61,623 nt of DNA, from contig NZ_VDFV01000007.1 of NCBI RefSeq assembly GCF_006152145.1, positions 1 to 61,623 on the forward strand, read 5' to 3'. This DNA is from Rubellimicrobium roseum (lineage in GTDB: Bacteria; Pseudomonadota; Alphaproteobacteria; Rhodobacterales; Rhodobacteraceae). Each line of letters starts with the position of its first letter. The first letter of the stretch is position 1. Below, piece by piece: positions 1 to 24,035 of this stretch. The translations under genes and the position numbers were made by a program. Below the pieces are notes generated by a model that had not been told where the DNA came from, did no database searches, and worked only from the letters and a program-made list of their open reading frames with translations.

Positions 1-189
1 GTTCCAGACCCGGCTGGGCCGGGAGGGGCGGTCCTCGAGCGCCTCAGGTCCTCCGGTCTGGTAGAGCTCGTACCAGCGGTAGAACGTGGCTCTCGGGATC
101 CCGAGCTTCTCCAGGGTGCGCCTGACCGGCAGGTGTGACTGCTCGACCAGGCGGATGATCTCGGCCTTCTCGGATGCGGGGTACCTCAT
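1..189 (-). CDS. IS3-family transposase OrfB, N-terminal fragment (runs off the window)
   Basis: Sixty-three codons are visible from an ATG at 189 to the window edge. The product starts MRYPASEKAEIIRLVEQSH and continues with a helix-turn-helix-like segment (LGIPRATFYRWYELY) and then an EDRPSRPSRVWN linker, typical of the region before the DDE integrase core of IS3-group OrfB proteins. The ATG overlaps the orfA stop codon as ATGA, so OrfB may be made by coupled re-initiation as well as by the programmed -1 frameshift usual in this family. The catalytic DDE residues are outside the window. Confidence 0.8.
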   Translation of the reverse strand, partial: MRYPASEKAEIIRLVEQSHLPVRRTLEKLGIPRATFYRWYELYQTGGPEALEDRPSRPSRVWN

Positions 190-563
190 GCGTCGTCGCC
201 CCCAGCCCCGCTCATGCTTTTTTTGAGCAGGCGGTTCTCGAGGGTGAGGTCGGCCACGACCTCCTTCAGGGCGCTGGCCTCGCGGCGGAGCTCCTTCACC
301 TCGTCCGAGGTCGCGGCCCGGGCGGTGTCGCCCGCCAGCCTCTTCTTGCCGGCCTCGAGGAACTCCTTGGACCAGCCATAGTACATCGAGCTGCTGATCC
401 CCTCGCGCCGGCACAGCTCGGCGATGCTGTCCTCCCCGCGCAAGCCCTCCAGCACGATGCGGATCTTCTCCTCGGCAGAGAACTGGCGGCGGGTGGCGCG
501 CCGGATGTCCTTCAGGACGGCTTCAGCAGGAGCCTTCTTGGTTGGCCCGGATGTCTGCTTCAT
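186..563 (-). CDS. IS3-family transposase OrfA
   Basis: A 125-aa protein beginning MKQTSGPTKK. It has an HTH_Tnp_1 domain (FSAEEKIRIVLEGLRGE, then the recognition-helix region ELCRREGISSSMYYGWSKEF) and a C-terminal leucine-zipper-like helix (LRREASALKEVVADLTLENR) used for OrfA/OrfAB multimerisation in the IS3 family. The domain order and length match OrfA of IS3-type elements. It binds the element's terminal repeats and overlaps orfB by ATGA at its 3' end. A longer upstream start is possible but lacks family similarity. Confidence 0.85.
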   Translation of the reverse strand: MKQTSGPTKKAPAEAVLKDIRRATRRQFSAEEKIRIVLEGLRGEDSIAELCRREGISSSMYYGWSKEFLEAGKKRLAGDTARAATSDEVKELRREASALKEVVADLTLENRLLKKSMSGAGGDDA

Positions 564-695
564 CTTCGCTCCTTGGCGGCTGCGATGAACCAGACATCCT
601 CCTCTCACAAAACACCCCAGTATGTCTCATGGGCGCTGATCCGGGACAGACAGTCACCATGCAGGCCGACCACAGACAACGGAGCAGGACCCACG

Positions 696-1166
696 ATGAG
701 CTCATCCCCAACCATGGAAGACCTGCTGGCCGAGGAGGCGAGCCTCGTCCTTGACCGGTTCGATTATGCCTCCGCCTGGGATCTCGGGGTGCGCATCCGG
801 AGCGTGGCATCCGAGCGGCGCTTGCCCATCGCTGTTGAGGTCTTCCATGGCACCGCGCCCGTGTTCTTTGCGCTGTTGCCCGGGGCCACGCCCGACAACA
901 GCGAGTGGATCCGACGGAAGCGGGCCGTTGCCCTGCGCTTTCACCACAGCTCGCTCTACATGCGGCTTGCTTGCGAGAGCAAAGGCGTGACGCTCAGCGA
1001 GCGGTATGGCCTCCCCGAGACGGAGTTCGTGGCCAGCGGCGGGGCCGTGCCGATCTTTGTGCGCGACGTGGGTCTGGTGGGCGTTGCAACGGTGAGCGGG
1101 ATCCCGGATGTCGAGGACCACCAGCTTGTCGTGTCCGCCATCCACGATCTTAGGGGCGGCTTCTAA
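696..1166 (+). CDS. UPF0303 / heme-degrading (HbpS-like) domain protein
   Basis: A 156-aa protein starting MSSSPTMEDLLAEEASLVLD. The ATG at 696 is preceded by GGAG at 681-684. Family hallmarks are the LPGATPDNSEWIRRK segment near residues 58-72, the FHHSSLYMRL segment, and the C-terminal VSGIPDVEDHQLVV stretch, all matching UPF0303 proteins (GlcG/HbpS-like fold, annotated as heme-degrading domain proteins; biochemical role poorly defined). Full length for the family. The gene sits about 45 bp from the end of the IS element, so its native promoter has probably been displaced or replaced. Confidence 0.8.
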   Translation: MSSSPTMEDLLAEEASLVLDRFDYASAWDLGVRIRSVASERRLPIAVEVFHGTAPVFFALLPGATPDNSEWIRRKRAVALRFHHSSLYMRLACESKGVTLSERYGLPETEFVASGGAVPIFVRDVGLVGVATVSGIPDVEDHQLVVSAIHDLRGGF

Positions 1167-1257
1167 GTTCAATTTTACCGACCTCACTGGTCAGATTTCG
1201 TGCTTCTTGACTTGGCGCTGCGGCGGGCGGAATGGCGGTACCAAGAAGCGGGCCTCC

Positions 1258-2283
1258 TCAGTGGAGAGTTGTTTGGGCAATGATCCTTGCCAGCTGGTGC
1301 CGAGCCTCGTGCTCCGTCCTGTAGCTTCCGCAGTGTTCACGACGACGTCGCCCGTCCACGGTGTAAATGACCGTCGGACAAGGCCCAGGCTGCACCTGAG
1401 CGATCTCCTCTTTGCCGCCATAACTACACGTCCATCTGTCGTCGCTCATGCGGATCCACGGCCGCGCCGGCCGAAGTCGCTCCAGAGCCTGCCGGAACTC
1501 CTTGGCCGAGCGAAAGCGCTGCTCGATGTCCGCGTGAGTTGCTTTGTTGATGAGACGTTTTAGCGCGGGGGGCACGTGGTCGGCGAAGCCGATCCGGGCG
1601 GCCAGCCTGCCTTCGCTGACAAGGCGTGGCCACTCGGGATCAGCGAGCACTGCGCCCAAGCTCGGCTGGTTATTCACCGCCCGGAGCAACGTCACCCCGG
1701 CCGCGTAAACATCGCTGGCCGCTGAGAACTCGTAACCGTTCGCTGCCTCGGGCGAGGCATGTGGATGATAGAAGCAAGCCGACGCCATGATCCCGCTCTC
1801 GGGGTGGATCACGGTTCCGAAGTCGGAGAGCTTCGCTACCGAGCCGGAAAGCATGATGTTGCCGGGCTTCACGTCGCGATGAACAATGCCCTTAGCGTGG
1901 GCGTGCTCAAGCGCGAACAGGACGTGCTTCATGTAGACCATGGAGTCGATCGCGGGCACGAAGCCGCGCATCAGCGCATCACCCAGTGATCCGCCTTCCA
2001 GAAGCTCCATTTCGATCAGGACCGCACCGTTAAGCACGTCGGCTGTGAGCACCTTCACCACATGATCGTGCGTGCAAAGGTATTGGGCCTGGGCCTCCAC
2101 TATCTCTCGGTACGAAGAAGGATCTTCAACCCGAATCAGCTTCAAGGCCGAGTCTCGACCCAGGTGCAGGTTCCGGACGTGGTATACCTCACCGAATGCG
2201 CCGCGACCGAGCGGACGCACCACCTCGTATTTGTTCGGGATAGCCTGTCCGGCCTGCAGATTTACAGGAGCGAGTGCCAACAT
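1258..2283 (-). CDS. Hanks-type serine/threonine protein kinase with C-terminal basic domain
   Basis: 341 aa from the ATG at 2283. All kinase motifs are intact: glycine loop GRGAFGEV (26-33), ATP lysine K48 in ALKLI, catalytic loop HRDVKPGN (135-142), DFG (154-156), ASPEA (176-180) and SDVYAAGV (190-197). No transmembrane segment is visible, so it should be cytosolic. After about residue 275 comes a small beta-rich then helical domain (DRWTCSYGG, YTVDGRRRREHCG, TEHEARHQLARII) that resembles an integrase-arm or AP2-like DNA-binding fold; this is inference. The start overlaps the stop of the upstream gene as TGATG, so the two are translationally coupled. Substrate unknown; the partner protein is the first guess. 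Confidence 0.88.
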   Translation of the reverse strand: MLALAPVNLQAGQAIPNKYEVVRPLGRGAFGEVYHVRNLHLGRDSALKLIRVEDPSSYREIVEAQAQYLCTHDHVVKVLTADVLNGAVLIEMELLEGGSLGDALMRGFVPAIDSMVYMKHVLFALEHAHAKGIVHRDVKPGNIMLSGSVAKLSDFGTVIHPESGIMASACFYHPHASPEAANGYEFSAASDVYAAGVTLLRAVNNQPSLGAVLADPEWPRLVSEGRLAARIGFADHVPPALKRLINKATHADIEQRFRSAKEFRQALERLRPARPWIRMSDDRWTCSYGGKEEIAQVQPGPCPTVIYTVDGRRRREHCGSYRTEHEARHQLARIIAQTTLH

Positions 2284-2744
2284 CAGAGGACCATCCAAGC
2301 TGCAAGGGCCGCATATTTGGCCCCGTCAGGCCAGCTATTCGGCCGGCAGGCGATGAGCTCATCGCAGGCCGCGAGCTTGTCGCCTTTGTAGCCCAGCGCC
2401 TTCGGAGTGAACGACTGCGATGTGAACTCGTGAGTCGGCAGCCCCTTCTCGAAGCCCAGCAGGTTGAGCACTCCGAACGGGAACACCAGATAGGCCATCT
2501 GGTCGGCGCTCTTGGCGTCCATCGACAATCGGTAAGCGAGCTGGTCGGGGTTGTTGGCCCCGATTACCTCGCCGAACGTCTGCCGAAAGAAGTGGGAGAG
2601 CGCCGCTCGGGATTGGCTCGGGTCGAACGGATCGCGGCCATGGGCGACGTAGATTGGCTGCGATTTCGACCCGCCAAGGGAGCAGTAATGCAGCTCCCCT
2701 TTTCTGAGATTGAATCCAAGAACCGTCAGAGGCGCGTTCTCCAT
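2283..2744 (-). CDS. Hypothetical protein with RuvC/RNase-H-like layout, kinase partner
   Basis: 153 aa starting MENAPLTVLGFNLRKGELHY. I do not recognise a named family. The order of elements resembles RuvC-like resolvases: a first strand pair (VLGFNLRKGELHYCSLGG), a PDQLAYRLSM strand, a helix with VFPFGVLNLLGFEKG, a GLPTHEFTSQSFTPKAL strand and helix, and a C-terminal helix (WPDGAKYAALAAWMVL). The acidic residues expected in strand 1 (Asp), strand 4 (Glu) and the last helix are replaced or displaced, so if the fold is right it may be a non-catalytic relative. The kinase follows with a 1-nt TGATG overlap. The ribosome-binding site is weak. Confidence 0.7.
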   Translation of the reverse strand: MENAPLTVLGFNLRKGELHYCSLGGSKSQPIYVAHGRDPFDPSQSRAALSHFFRQTFGEVIGANNPDQLAYRLSMDAKSADQMAYLVFPFGVLNLLGFEKGLPTHEFTSQSFTPKALGYKGDKLAACDELIACRPNSWPDGAKYAALAAWMVL

Positions 2745-2918
2745 AACTGTTGATGTCCGAAGCGGCCGCCCGGAATGGGCTCTAACCGCTCCGCCCAGGC
2801 TGGAGCTGCCCAGCCCGGGCGAGGCCGTGAGGTCCGGAGCGCCGCACCAGCGCTCTGTCACCTGTTGTGGTAGTTGGCCCCCGGTCAGAGCACCTGAAGG
2901 AAAACTCTTGACAGGGGG

Positions 2919-2948
2919 TGTGCATGCAAAGCCGCCGACTGTGCATGC
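2919..2948. promoter_or_regulatory. Paired TGTGCATGC repeats, possible operator
   Basis: The 9-mer TGTGCATGC occurs at 2919-2927 and again at 2940-2948, 21 bp apart (two helical turns), each containing the palindrome GCATGC. It lies between the 3' end of nrdJ and the start of the kinase-partner gene, whose promoter would be in this stretch. The role as an operator is inferred from spacing and position only. Confidence 0.35.
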
Positions 2949-2986
2949 TTATAGGTCGTTGGCAACCCGGCACTTTTAGTCAACAC

Positions 2987-5900
2987 TCAGCTGCAGCCGC
3001 TCGTGCCGCCGCAGGTGTTGCACTTCATGCAGGTGCCGTTGCGCACCAGCGTGTAGTTGCCGCATTCGCCGCAGGGGTCGCCCTCGTAGCCCTGGATGCG
3101 GGCCTTGTCGCGGGCGCTGATCGTGCCGGTGGCGAGCGCCGTGGCCGAGGTCGAGGGCTCGTAGGTCGCGGCGGGCTCGGCCATGCTGGTCGCGGCGGCG
3201 ATCAGGTCCTGAGGCAGGCGCTTGCGCAGGTAGCCGGTCGAGCTGATCTCCTTGAGGAGCCTGATCGACTGCGTCGCCACCCGGTCGGAGACGGGCGAGA
3301 CGTTGCGCTCGGCCTCGCCCTGGCCCAGTTCGTCGAAGCTCGCGCCCTTGGGGGCGACATGGGCGAGGTCGGTGCGGTCGAGGTAGGAGATCGCCAGCTC
3401 GCGGAAGATGTAGTCGAGGATGGAGGTCGCCGACTTGATCGAGTCGTTGCCCTGCACCATGCCCGCGGGCTCGAAGCGGGTGAAGGTGAAGGCGTCCACG
3501 AACTCCTCGAGCGGCACGCCGTATTGAAGGCCGACAGAGACGGCGATGGCGAAGTTGTTCATCATCGCCCGGAAGCCCGCGCCTTCCTTGTGCATGTCGA
3601 GGAAGATCTCGCCCAAGCGGCCGTCGCCGTATTCACCGGTGCGGAGATAGACCTTGTGGCCGCCGATGATTGCCTTCTGGGTGTAGCCCTTGCGGCGGGC
3701 GGGCATCTTCTCGCGCTCGCGGGTGCGGACTTCGCGGACGACGATTTTCTCCACGATCTTCTCGGCCATCACGGCGACCTTCTCGGGCACCGAGCCGTTG
3801 GCCAGGATCTCCTCGGCCTCCTCGTCGCCGTCGATGAGGGCGGAGGCGAGGGGCTGCGAGAGCTTGGAGCCATCGCGGTACAGCGCGTTGGCCTTCACCC
3901 CCAGGCTCCAGGACAGCATGTAGGCGTCCTGGCAGTCCTTGATCGTCGCGCCGTTCGGCATGTTGATGGTCTTGGAGATGGCGCCCGAGATGAAGCTCTG
4001 CGCCGCGGCCATCATCGTGATGTGCGACTCAACCGACAGGAAACGCCGACCCTTCTTGCCGCAGGGGTTGGCGCAGTCGAAGACGGAAAGGTGCTCCTCG
4101 CGCAGGTAGGGCGCGCCTTCGAGCGTCATCGTCCCGCAGACATGGTCGTTGGCCGCGTCGATCTGCGCGCGGGTGAAGCCCAGGTGGCGCAGGAGGTCGA
4201 AGCCCGGGTCGTTGAGCTTGGCGGCCGGGATGCCCAGCGTCTTGGTGCAGAACTCCTCGCCCAGAGTCCACTGATTGAAGACGAAGCGGATGTCGAAGGC
4301 CTGGGGCAGGGCGGCTTCGATCTTCTCCAGCTCCTCGGGGCCGAAGCCGTGGCCGATCAGCGCCGTGTGGTTGATGCCGGGGGCGTTGCCGAGCGTGCGG
4401 TGGCCAACGGCGTAGGCGATGATCTCCTCGATCTCGGCGGGGGCGTAGCCCAGCTTGTCGAGCGCTGCGGGGACCGACTGGTTGATGATCTTGAAGTAGC
4501 CGCCGCCGGCGAGCTTCTTGAACTTCACCAGGGCGAAGTCGGGCTCGATGCCGGTGGTGTCGCAGTCCATGACGAGGCCGATGGTGCCCGTGGGCGCGAT
4601 CACCGTCGTCTGGGCGTTGCGGAAGCCGTGGGCCTCGCCCAGGGTCAGCGCCTCGTCCCAGGCCTGCATGGCCAGTTCCGAGAGGCGGGCGTCGAGCACG
4701 TTGGCATGGTCGAGCGGCACGGGCTTGACGGCGAGGTTCTCGTAGCCCCCGGCTTGGCCATGGGCGGCGCGGCGGTGGTTGCGGATGACGCGCAGCATGG
4801 ACTGGCGGTTGCGCTCGTAGCCCGCGAAGGGGCCTAGCTCGGCGGCGATCTCGGCGGAGGTGGCGTAGGCGGTGCCGGTCATGATGGCGGTCAGCGCGCC
4901 GCAGAGCGCCCGGCCCTCGGCCGAGTCGTAGCCCAGGCCCATGTTCATCAGGAGCCCGCCGATGTTGGCGTAGCCCAGGCCCAGCGTGCGGAAGTCGTAG
5001 GAAAGCTGCGCGATCTCCTTGGAGGGGAACTGCGCCATGGTCACGCTGATCTCGAGCGTGAGGGTCCAGAGCTTGACCGCGTGGATGTAGCGGGCCGCGT
5101 CGAACTCCTCGCCGTCCCAGAAGGTCAGGAGGTTGAGCGAGGCCAGGTTGCAGGCCGTGTCGTCCAGGAACATGTACTCCGAGCAGGGGTTCGAGCCCCG
5201 GATCGGGCCGTTGGCCGGGCAGGTATGCCAGGCGTTCACGGTGTCATGGAACTGGATGCCGGGATCGGCGCAGGCCCAGGCGGCGTGGCCGATCTGGTCC
5301 CACAGATCGCGGGCCTTGATCGACTTCGTGACCTTGCCGTCGCGGCGCGCCTTGAGCTGCCAGTCGCCGTCGGCCTCGACCGCGCGCAGGAAGGTGTCGG
5401 TGACGCGGATCGAGTTGTTCGAGTTCTGGCCCGAGACGGAGGCGTAGGCCTCGGAATCCCAGTCGGTGTCGTAGGTCGGGAACTCGATCGAGTCGAAGCC
5501 CTGGCGGGCGTAGTCGAGCACGCGCTTGATGTAGGTCTCGGGGATGGCCGAGCGCTTGGCGTCGCGGATGGCGGCCTTGAGGGCGGCGTTCTTGGCGGGC
5601 TCGTAGGCGTCGGCCGGTTCGCCGTCCCAGGCCTTGAGCGCGGCGAAGATGCCGTTGAGGCGCTTCTCGTGCATCTTGGAGCCGGCGACGATGGACGCCA
5701 CCTTCTGCTCCTCGATGACCTTCCAGTTGATGAAGGCCTCGATGTCGGGGTGGTCGGCGTCGACGATCACCATCTTGGCCGCGCGGCGCGTGGTGCCGCC
5801 CGACTTGATCGCGCCCGCCGCGCGGTCGCCGATCTTAAGAAAGCCCATCAGGCCCGAGGAGCGGCCGCCGCCCGACAGCTTCTCGCCCTCGCCGCGGAGC

Positions 5901-6586
5901 GAGGAGAAGTTGGTGCCGGTGCCCGAGCCGTATTTGAAGAGCCGAGCCTCGCGCACCCAGAGGTCCATAATCCCGCCCTCGTTCACGAGGTCGTCCTGCA
6001 CGGACTGGATGAAGCAGGCGTGAGGCTGCGGATGTTCGTAGGCCGACTGGGAGCGGACGAGCTCGCCCGTCTGGAAGTCGACGTAGTAGTGGCCCTGCGC
6101 CGGGCCGTCGATGCCATAGGCCCAGTGCAGGCCGGTGTTGAACCACTGCGGGCTATTCGGCGCGCCCATCTGGCGGGCCAGCATGTGCCGCATCTCGTCG
6201 TAATAGGCGCGGGCGTCGGTTTCGGCGGTGAAGTAGCCGCCCTTCCAGCCCCAGTAGGCCCAGGCCCCCGCAAGACGGTCGAAGACCTGGCGGGCCGAGG
6301 TTTCGCCGCCGAGAGTGGCGTCCTTGGCCGGGACCGAGCGGCGGAGCCAGAGGGGAACACCCTCTTCCTCGACGGGCGTGGTGGCCGAGGGGACGCCCGC
6401 CTTGCGGAAGTACTTCTGGGCGATCACGTCGGCCGCGACCTGCGACCAAGCTTCCGGCACTTCGAGCGTGTCGAGCTTGAAGACCGTGGTGCCGTCGGGA
6501 TTGCGGATCTCCGAGGCGGTGGTGCGGAAAGAGATGCCCTCATAAGCATCCCGACCCTCGGTGGTGAATGCGCGTTCGATTTGCAT
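2987..6586 (-). CDS. nrdJ: Vitamin B12-dependent ribonucleoside-diphosphate reductase (class II)
   Basis: 1199 aa starting [17 protein letters not shown] at an ATG preceded by GGAGGACAGG. It reduces ribonucleotides to deoxyribonucleotides using adenosylcobalamin. Recognisable segments: an N-terminal [16 protein letters not shown] block, the radical/active-site region [18 protein letters not shown], the [16 protein letters not shown] region, and a C-terminal cysteine-rich tail ([19 protein letters not shown]) with the redox/zinc-type cysteines. The length matches long alphaproteobacterial NrdJ proteins. It stands alone without nrdAB genes nearby. DnaA-box-like sites and a possible NrdR box lie in the 5' region. 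Confidence 0.95.
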
Positions 6587-6694
6587 CGTCCTGTCCTCCA
6601 AACATGGAAAACGAAGAGAGACGCTGCCGTCCAATGGACGACATTCGAGTGCTTTCCGCCCCGGTCCCTTGCTTCGCGTTTGTCCGTTCTGTCC

Positions 6695-6708
6695 CACCAC
6701 ATCTAGTG
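6695..6708 (-). promoter_or_regulatory. Possible NrdR box upstream of nrdJ
   Basis: On the nrdJ strand the site reads CACTAGATGTGGTG, which matches 11 of 14 positions of the general NrdR pattern CACTATATATAGTG and is an imperfect palindrome. NrdR boxes usually come in pairs about 31 bp apart; a very degenerate second candidate sits near 6725-6740. It lies 109 bp upstream of the nrdJ start, a sensible operator position. Confidence 0.35.
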
Positions 6709-6769
6709 GGCAACTGCTTCGAGAACACAGACTGATGTATCCCGTTCCCGCTCGCAATGCTCTTTCTGT

Positions 6770-6866
6770 TGTGGAAAAGTCGCAGAAAGGCTTTGACTCA
6801 AGACCAGATCCGAGTCCGTGTGGATATCTCCGATTCTTACGGCAGCCGTCCCCAATCTTATCCACA
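6770..6866. promoter_or_regulatory. Cluster of DnaA-box-like sites upstream of nrdJ
   Basis: TTATCCACA, the consensus DnaA box, occurs at 6858-6866 on the plus strand. TGTGGATAT (6819-6827) and TGTGGAAAA (6770-6778) are each one mismatch from the box on the other strand. In E. coli, DnaA binds the nrdAB promoter, so a role in tying nrdJ expression to replication is plausible. An origin is less likely because no AT-rich unwinding region or replication gene is adjacent. Confidence 0.5.
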
Positions 6867-6870
6867 GGAA

Positions 6871-6888
6871 TGTGACCTGAGCGTCACA
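6871..6888. repeat. Inverted repeat TGTGAC-N6-GTCACA
   Basis: A perfect 6-bp inverted repeat with a 6-bp spacer, 5 bp from the consensus DnaA box. It resembles a Crp/Fnr-type site, but its spacing differs from classical TGTGA-N6-TCACA. The regulator is unknown. Confidence 0.35.
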
Positions 6889-7066
6889 ATCGGAGTGGAA
6901 ATGAATTGTCCAAGGCGGGACTACGAAGGGCCGTGCAGCGCAGCTCCGGGTCCGTGATTACGGTCCGGCTGGATCAGAGCTGGTGCATGCGTGACGGCGG
7001 GCCCGAACGGACCGGGGCGAGGCGGCGTGCCGGGAATCGGGCGGTGTCGTCGGGTCAGAGGCGTTC

Positions 7067-7546
7067 CTAGCGCAGCTCGCGCTTGGCGAGGCCGGTCTCG
7101 ACCAGAAGGCCACGGTCTCGCGCCTCGTAGTAGTAGCCGCGACGATACCAGTCGTAGGCCCGCTCGAGGTTGCCATTGGCGACGATCCAGGCGCCGCGCA
7201 GGTAGGCGCCGCCCCAGCGCAGGTTGGTGCGGGCGTCGAGGAGGCCCGAGTCGGGTCCCTCGTAGCCCATCGTCCGGGCGGTCTGGGGCGCGATCTGCAT
7301 GAGTCCCAGGTAGGTGCCGTTGCGGGCGGCGGGATTATAGCCGCTCTCGACGCGGACCACGTGGTCCAGAAGCTCGGGCGGGATGTCGAGGGACTCGGCG
7401 GTCGTCTCGATCAGGGAGCGCATCTCGGCGGGGCCGCCGATCTCGACCGCCTGGGGTGCCTTCGCCGCGTCGCGCCCCGTGCCGCAGGCTGCAAGGGGGA
7501 GGAGCGCCAGGGCGAGCGCCGCCCGGCGAATGGCGAAGGAATTCAT
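7067..7546 (-). CDS. Lipoprotein lytic transglycosylase (SLT/LT domain)
   Basis: 159 aa starting MNSFAIRRAALALALLPLAAC, a signal peptide ending in lipobox LAAC with the acylated cysteine at about residue 21. The SLT domain has the catalytic glutamate E67 in VVRVESGYNP, followed by GLMQIAPQTARTMGY and the LRWGGAYLRG segment. It should cleave peptidoglycan glycan strands from the periplasmic face of a membrane. It is short, essentially one catalytic domain with no LysM or other binding domain. It is monocistronic as far as can be seen. Confidence 0.88.
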   Translation of the reverse strand: MNSFAIRRAALALALLPLAACGTGRDAAKAPQAVEIGGPAEMRSLIETTAESLDIPPELLDHVVRVESGYNPAARNGTYLGLMQIAPQTARTMGYEGPDSGLLDARTNLRWGGAYLRGAWIVANGNLERAYDWYRRGYYYEARDRGLLVETGLAKRELR

Positions 7547-7607
7547 GGAGGCTCCGCTTGACTGTCCGGTGCGGACGCTAACCAAGAACGGTCAGCGCGC
7601 AAGCGGC

Positions 7608-7928
7608 CTAGCGGCGCCGACCCACGCCCAAGGCGTCCAGTTCGGCTTCAATCCGCTCATCGCCGGCCCGCGCCGCCTTGAGCGCGTCGAAGCGGGCGCG
7701 CAGAGCGGCCTTCTCGTCGCCCTGGCAATCGGTCCAGGGCCGGTCCTGCAGGGCCATGTGCAGGACGTAGTAGCCGATGAAGTGAGGCCGCTCGCCGGTC
7801 GCGAGGAGCCGGGCATAGGCGGCGTCCGCGCCTAGAGCGCAAAGCTCCTCGGCCGATTCGATGCCGGCGCGGCGGAACGCGGCCTCGGTGGCGGGCCCCA
7901 GGTTGCGCAGGGAGGAGATCGCGCTCAT
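7608..7928 (-). CDS. TfoX/Sxy C-terminal domain protein
   Basis: 106 aa from the ATG at 7928. It starts MSAISSLRNLGPATEAAFRR, the helix-hairpin-helix-like opening of the TfoX C-terminal domain (AGIESAEELCALGADAAYARLL), followed by FIGYYVLHMALQDRPW. The usual N-terminal TfoX domain is absent, a common stand-alone form in alphaproteobacteria. TfoX/Sxy regulates competence in gammaproteobacteria; here a role in DNA or protein interaction can only be guessed. Confidence 0.8.
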   Translation of the reverse strand: MSAISSLRNLGPATEAAFRRAGIESAEELCALGADAAYARLLATGERPHFIGYYVLHMALQDRPWTDCQGDEKAALRARFDALKAARAGDERIEAELDALGVGRRR

Positions 7929-8062
7929 GCGGGCGCCTTCGTGAGGGTGGAAAGGGATGGCCGGCGCTCGGCACCGTTGCGAGGGCGTCGTCGCCCCGGC
8001 CGCCAGTGATCCCGGACACGGCCCGAGGGAGAGGCGGGCCGCTGTGGGTCCGGGACAGAAGG

Positions 8063-23626: not shown

Positions 23627-23689
23627 GCGCCCATGCTGCCCGAGAGCGGGGCGTTGCGGCAAGCGAAACGATGGGTAGGAAGTGCAGGC

Positions 23690-24001
23690 TTCTGTTGCCA
23701 GGTGCCTGCGAACCCCGCCTGAGGGGCTTATTCCCCAGGACTTTGGCTTTGGTCTCTACCGCCTAATTAGGCGGCGAGGGCCATCGCCGGAGCACGGTTG
23801 TTGTTGGCAACTATGCGTTGTGGACCGATAACGGTGGTACCTCACCGGGACAAAGCAAACACCTTTACACGTTCGTCGATCCTGTTTCGGCCCCTTACCG
23901 TCCCCCAACAAGGGATGATTGGTGGAGCCGCCGGGTACCGCCCCCGGGTCCGAACCGCTTATTCCGTGCGCGTTTATGCCCATAGTCCGGTTGCCCGGAC
24001 G
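23690..24001 (-). ncRNA. ssrA: Transfer-messenger RNA, circularly permuted two-piece type
   Basis: Read on the minus strand, an acceptor piece comes first and ends in CGGCTCCACCA (3' end at 23920), with a T-arm-like GGTTCGGACCC. After about 25 nt of intervening sequence the coding piece begins GGGGCCGAAACAGGATCGACG (5' end about 23894). GGGGCCG pairs with CGGCTCC to form the acceptor stem. The tag frame at 23808-23767 encodes ANNNRAPAMALAA followed by TAA inside a CCGCCTAATTAGGCGG hairpin. This permuted order is the alphaproteobacterial form. Outer ends are approximate. It rescues stalled ribosomes. Confidence 0.92.
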
Positions 24002-24006
24002 CCTCA

Positions 24007-24035
24007 TAGATAGGACGGCGGGGCCGCGCGCACAA
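24007..24035 (-). promoter_or_regulatory. Likely ssrA promoter
   Basis: On the minus strand, TTGTGC (24035-24030), a 17-bp spacer and TATCTA (24012-24007) form a sigma-70-like promoter. It would start transcription near 24000, at the 5' end of the tmRNA acceptor piece. Confidence 0.6.

Follow-up and report, generated by a model that had tools for sequence, protein, structure and literature searches.

We propose, from sequence comparison, that two overlapping genes near the start of a 61,623-nucleotide stretch of a Rubellimicrobium roseum contig (hereafter the window) form a mobile, translationally coupled anti-phage cassette in which a kinase effector would be under the control of a pseudo-RuvC protein, a function to which we give an even chance. 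The evidence comes from the predicted fold and altered active site of the kinase's partner (hereafter X), from recurrence of the same pair elsewhere, and from the defense genes that surround or adjoin its relatives.

Gene organization and composition

The gene for X (2283-2744, minus strand, 153 amino acids), which has a predicted RuvC fold with replaced catalytic acids (N12, R72, Y144), is followed by that of a Hanks-type Ser/Thr kinase of 341 amino acids (1258-2283, minus strand). The TGA stop of X and the ATG of the kinase have one base in common in the window DNA, confirming the TGATG overlap reported in the first-pass annotation. That annotation had also placed the pair beside an IS element and between a UPF0303 gene and nrdJ, and this arrangement held. 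Upstream on the same strand, outside the cassette and 242 bp from it, is nrdJ (2987-6865, minus strand). The convergent UPF0303 gene on the other side (696-1166, plus strand) matched Pfam HbpS-like (E = 4.5e-26; scan of 708-1166). Near the contig end, which coincides with window base 1, lies an IS transposase gene (186-608, minus strand) matching Pfam HTH_Tnp_1 (E = 3.1e-13), a domain that we take to be of the kind present in IS3 orfA. No other defense gene was seen adjacent to the window pair, the neighbors being only nrdJ, the HbpS-like gene, and the IS gene.

The pair is foreign by composition. Its GC content is 61.3%, compared with a mean of 70.0% (sd 2.6) for sliding windows of the same length, none of which (0/241) was as low. 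Third-position GC was 0.72 in the kinase and 0.78 in X, versus 0.82-0.95 in eight other window genes, bearing out the less GC-rich codon use noted previously. A search of 1100-3100 gave no sigma-70-like promoter; the two terminator-like sites in that interval were both on the opposite strand and their count was near chance expectation, and no Rfam family exceeded threshold in 1-8000. Elsewhere in the window, a tmRNA gene was found at 23676-24015 (minus strand), which ARAGORN marks with an asterisk.

The partner protein

Searches of Pfam, NCBIfam, PADLOC, and PHROGs gave no family match for window X, and its relatives P0004, P0006, and P0008 gave only chance-level matches in Pfam and PADLOC (DUF1858, 0.12; PDC-M62B, 0.04). 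We modeled X with AlphaFold2 from an alignment of three sequences. The best model had a pLDDT of 81.8 and the second 79.1, with the other three of five at 54.4 or lower. Three strands, a helix, a strand, a helix, and a strand follow one another in the model before the closing helices. The 12 best matches to this model in the PDB were all RuvC chains, from four species (E = 3.1e-11 to 1.9e-8), covering nearly the whole of X with TM scores of 0.74-0.82 to the query, and they were followed by Ydc2 and RuvX/YqgF. The RuvC-like label first given to the partner is thus backed by the predicted fold. Profile-profile comparison of X with RuvC gave a probability of 97.9. A search of PDB sequences with the X profile also placed RuvC on top, yet only at E = 0.015. 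Independently of the fold, a profile built from the four partners found first also picked up RuvC genes at weak E-values.

X resembles the RuvC resolvase in predicted fold over nearly its full length but differs in that the catalytic acids are replaced and the protein is coupled to a kinase. All four RuvC acids (D7, E66, D138, D141) were intact in each of the 17 RuvC proteins compared. The catalytic Glu was replaced in every X found (8/8), by Arg in the three standalone partners (those outside restriction or DUF4917 loci) and by Lys in the other five. At the first Asp, one partner had Asp, two had Asn (including the window), and five had Arg. The last Asp was kept by the five non-standalone partners and is Tyr in the window. 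In window X, N12 and R72 occupy the first two positions and A142/Y144 lie near the last two, the last-helix positions being less surely aligned since the profile alignment stops before that helix. With Arg or Lys in place of the catalytic Glu in all eight, X is probably a dead resolvase that has lost the RuvC active site, and it is predicted to be a RuvC-fold protein incapable of RuvC-type cutting.

The kinase

The first-pass annotation credited the kinase with every catalytic motif and no membrane anchor, and we found the same. The protein matched Pfam Pkinase (E = 3.3e-35) and has the glycine loop (GRGAFG at 26), the Lys (residue 48, in LKL at 47), the Glu (EAQ at 63), the HRD Asp and Asn (HRDVKPGN at 135), and the DFG Asp (DFG at 154) of Hanks-type kinases, along with SPE at 177. 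The highest 19-residue Kyte-Doolittle means were 1.25 for the kinase and 1.23 for X, with no sign of a membrane anchor in either. Its score against NCBIfam PknB_PASTA_kin was 124.5 bits, under the cut-off of 450, which places it outside the PASTA/Stk1 (PknB) family.

The whole-kinase model was unreliable (pLDDT 57.7), and a fold search with it matched kinases at a TM score of only ~0.2. The C-terminal domain (residues 270-341; window 1258-1476, minus strand) is predicted to consist of four strands and a helix, with pLDDT of 74-91 per ten-residue block over 271-340 and 65 in the last block. A likeness of this tail to Arm-DNA-bind_4 (E = 0.048) fell short of the cut-off and serves as a lead only; it was absent from the kinase tails of L032, L041, and L031. 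Across the eight loci, the three standalone kinases have HRD, HGD, and HRD, all with DFG, and the remaining five have HND with DYG. The Mesorhizobium sp. NFR06 kinase (L031:8452-9467) is split into two overlapping frames, reflecting either decay of the gene or an error in the assembly.

Distribution

The X-kinase pair is rare. Single-sequence searches found it in 1 of 394 genomes across the family, namely the window's own, and in 2 of 385 across the class. Profile searches of 398 phylum genomes returned two true members besides RuvC, and there were three true members plus one RuvC among 218 genomes of the family of G921. A second phylum draw gave 2 of 200 genomes, both known already, and a scan of genome contigs yielded two loci from 37 candidates. 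These searches overlap one another, and together they gave eight distinct loci, including plasmids and one IMG/VR contig, with two near-identical Methylocystis records counted as one locus. Seven loci belong to Alphaproteobacteria and the eighth is an unassigned contig. Phage records had no X match; plasmids had none with window X or P0004 as query, and queries P0008 and P0011 recovered the same three plasmid records. Viral contigs gave no match with window X, and none of 42 candidates with A3 was a member.

In the phylum profile search 21 genomes matched, and the 19 with weak hits were classed as RuvC; the RuvC motif is present in 16 of these and was unconfirmed in L020, L025, and L027. L036 was likewise rejected as RuvC. 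The kinase matched 519 plasmid records, six of which were examined. Plasmid loci L004, L006, L007, and L008 were rejected on annotation: their kinases are longer, and three of them adjoin type VI secretion genes.

At all eight loci the kinase directly follows X on one strand, and the stop of X and the start of the kinase either overlap or are separated by 4 bases. The overlap amounts to a single base in the window, to 4 bases (ATGA) in L005, L040, and L041, to 4 bases also in L003 and L039 when homology is used to set the starts, and to 8 bases in Mesorhizobium; in L032 the genes are 4 bases apart. Recurrence of the same adjacent pair at seven other loci indicates that the pairing is more than chance, and rare co-occurrence, named in the first-pass annotation as grounds against a new system, is not what we observed. 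A search from the kinase side agreed: 2 of 240 class genomes reached E ≤ 1e-40, and X was present in both. Identities of X and kinase also covaried over the 28 locus pairs (Pearson 0.985), a correlation whose p-value shared ancestry makes unusable.

Genomic context

In four of the eight loci the pair is part of a type I restriction operon, with hsdS on one side and hsdR on the other. These are a Novosphingobium plasmid typed as conjugative (L003), a Methylocystis plasmid typed as non-mobilizable (L005), a locus in G1260 with a phage-type integrase nearby (L040), and the IMG/VR contig, which has a serine recombinase (L041). A YgjP/SprT-type protease gene follows hsdR in all four. The part of the IMG/VR contig that was retrieved (L041:1-12465) reads as an integrative element rather than a virus, with the serine recombinase, the hsd operon and pair, and a transposase.

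In L039 (G1317) the pair is adjoined by a gene for DUF4917, the PADLOC phage-defense candidate PDC-S21 (E = 2.6e-121), and no relative of the L041 hsd genes was found within the 18 kb of this locus. This pair is 82%/81% identical to the one in the Methylocystis hsd operon, so closely related cassettes serve two settings. DUF4917 follows the pair directly (L039:6756-9381), a possible three-gene system; DUF4917/PDC-S21 was absent from the window genome, G921, G611, and G1260. The three standalone loci are the window and Mesorhizobium sp. NFR06 (L031), both with the pair behind nrdJ, and a MAG from the Alphaproteobacteria (L032) with the pair behind groEL.

Defense genes therefore stand around or beside the pair in five of the eight loci, all of them relatives and not the window's own. 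The pair had initially been read as a phospho-regulated defense or DNA-repair module. The defense half of that reading gains from these relatives; for repair no pointer was found, and the RuvC active site looks lost. With eight loci only, the association with defense could partly reflect hitch-hiking on mobile DNA.

The hsd operons would also accommodate a regulator of restriction, in which X binds DNA or HsdMS and the kinase phosphorylates X or HsdR, tuning restriction, perhaps so that the host is spared when its DNA is damaged; in that case standalone copies would be remnants, or would work on type I enzymes encoded elsewhere. Besides the four pairs between hsdS and hsdR, this account can draw on HsdR-like matches in the window genome, on four contigs (C117, C113, C132, and C143) and 28-36% identical to the pair-linked HsdR. 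It is countered by G921, G611, and G1317, in which the pair lies outside an hsd operon and no HsdR relative was found at E ≤ 1e-10 in a search with one query, which could miss other type I families, and with G611 87% complete. The lack of such a match in these three genomes disfavors a strict need for a restriction partner, and we consider regulation of restriction an unlikely primary role.

Another alternative is a toxin-antitoxin module in which the kinase would be the toxin and X the antitoxin, mainly stabilizing mobile DNA with defense as a side effect. Two small coupled genes with X first, foreign GC, two loci on plasmids, and two beside recombinases are all in keeping with such a module, but addiction alone offers no explanation for the presence of half of the loci in hsd operons with a fixed gene order, and this role seems to us quite improbable. 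The mobile elements in the loci, namely the plasmids, the integrase, and the serine recombinase, also support the anti-phage reading, as does the low GC of the window pair.

The position behind nrdJ

In two distant loci, the window and NFR06, nrdJ is followed at once by the pair on the same strand, as would be expected if the pair had a housekeeping role connected with NrdJ, the class II ribonucleotide reductase, or with dNTP pools. The position was not conserved in either group. In the window's genus, nrdJ loci were obtained from seven of eight genomes and only the window had the pair behind nrdJ (1/7). Among 30 nrdJ loci from 31 Mesorhizobium genomes, most extending ~0.6-1.5 kb past nrdJ, only NFR06 had it (1/30). 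In NFR06, X starts 6 bp past the nrdJ stop on the same strand, and beyond the pair is a glyoxalase-like gene that in 7 of the 30 loci is found behind nrdJ, within 100 bp of it in two. The occurrence of this gene behind nrdJ in other loci suggests that the pair was inserted in NFR06.

The gene behind nrdJ differs between Mesorhizobium genomes (L073-L102), with CBASS-, PARIS-, and AbiU-like genes among those found. We scanned one downstream protein from each of 10 loci, NFR06 not among them, picked by eye from the 29 with a readable nrdJ end. Three had strong PADLOC matches, to a SAVED-HNH effector (2.4e-97), AriAB (3.7e-96), and AbiU (1.4e-48). The remaining seven comprised one weak match to capP (3.7e-13) and six without a PADLOC model, and Pfam assigned two of these six to DUF4062 and DUF4238. 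The site downstream of nrdJ in Mesorhizobium may possibly be a defense hot spot. Given these variable, partly defense-like genes, the shared nrdJ address is better explained by a site where defense and other accessory genes accumulate than by any link with nucleotide metabolism. With six of the eight pairs not beside nrdJ, and with unrelated and in some cases defense-like genes occupying that position in other Mesorhizobium, a housekeeping role for the pair appears very remote.

Comparison with characterized systems

The first-pass annotation could not name this combination of genes. X belongs to no named family in the four libraries searched, and we found no description of the X-kinase pair in the open-access literature, most subscription papers and preprints lying outside its reach. 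The closest parallel in genomic position is PrrC, which is likewise an accessory defense gene within a type I restriction locus, as the pair is in four of eight loci. A passage of PMC12707154 places prrC inside the type IC locus ecoprrI, attributes activation of PrrC to inhibition of the enzyme by T4 Stp, and terms PrrC and PARIS restriction-modification guardian systems. PrrC differs in being a tRNA anticodon nuclease and not a kinase, and the window pair has no adjoining hsd genes: a PrrC-like position within the hsd operon was found in L003, L005, L040, and L041 and not in the window. For RloC, a homologue of PrrC, PMC2610378 reports only rare linkage to type I systems, which implies that such modules can exist with or without a restriction system.

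Three kinase-containing defense systems invite comparison with the other half of the pair. MAD6, the kinase of the MADS defense system (as cited in a passage of PMC11842806), has the kinase domain in common with the window protein, which matched PADLOC mad6 at E = 5.1e-43 but scored 120.5 bits against NCBIfam antiphage_MADS6, under the curated cut-off of 460 and hence outside that family. PglW of Pgl/BREX is the kinase of a methylation-based defense system; here the window kinase scored 63.5 bits against a cut-off of 990 for NCBIfam BREX_PglW, a profile of 1,391 positions, and so is not a member. The PD-T4-6 match (E = 5.4e-43) extended along most of a 292-position PADLOC model that has no curated cut-off, and many PD-T4-6 models match any Hanks kinase. 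The mad6 and PD-T4-6 matches in PADLOC probably reflect the general kinase domain. We take PD-T4-6 to be a single-gene defense Ser/Thr kinase with no partner gene, and we know of no RuvC-fold partner in MADS, in PglW of BREX/Pgl, or in PD-T4-6. Kinase-containing defense is known from PglW, MAD6, and PD-T4-6, and we regard the pair as a probable addition to it, a putative kinase-based immunity that is partly linked to restriction and is set apart by its unusual partner.

Proposed mechanism and implications

In the anti-phage reading, X, as a probably dead RuvC fold, would sense infection through a signal in DNA or protein form, and would hold or recruit the kinase. The soluble kinase would be the effector and, once released, might phosphorylate host or phage proteins, stopping infection most likely by growth arrest. 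Within type I operons the pair could act as a guardian that fires on blocked or overloaded restriction, comparable to PrrC, and no restriction partner would be involved where, as in the window, it stands alone. More specifically, and only tentatively, we suggest that X is a non-cutting sensor of an immune kinase, one that may respond to branched or stalled phage DNA or to a blocked restriction complex and lead to arrest, in a cassette interchangeable among type I operons, DUF4917 (SIR2-like) loci, and standalone sites.

To our knowledge, phosphorylation-based bacterial immune systems are few and their triggers mostly unclear. If the proposal is true, a small portable cassette, embedded in hsd operons or standalone, would offer a tractable model, and a dead Holliday-junction-resolvase fold as the infection sensor of a kinase would become testable. 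Type I restriction loci would also gain a further guardian-like pair of genes.
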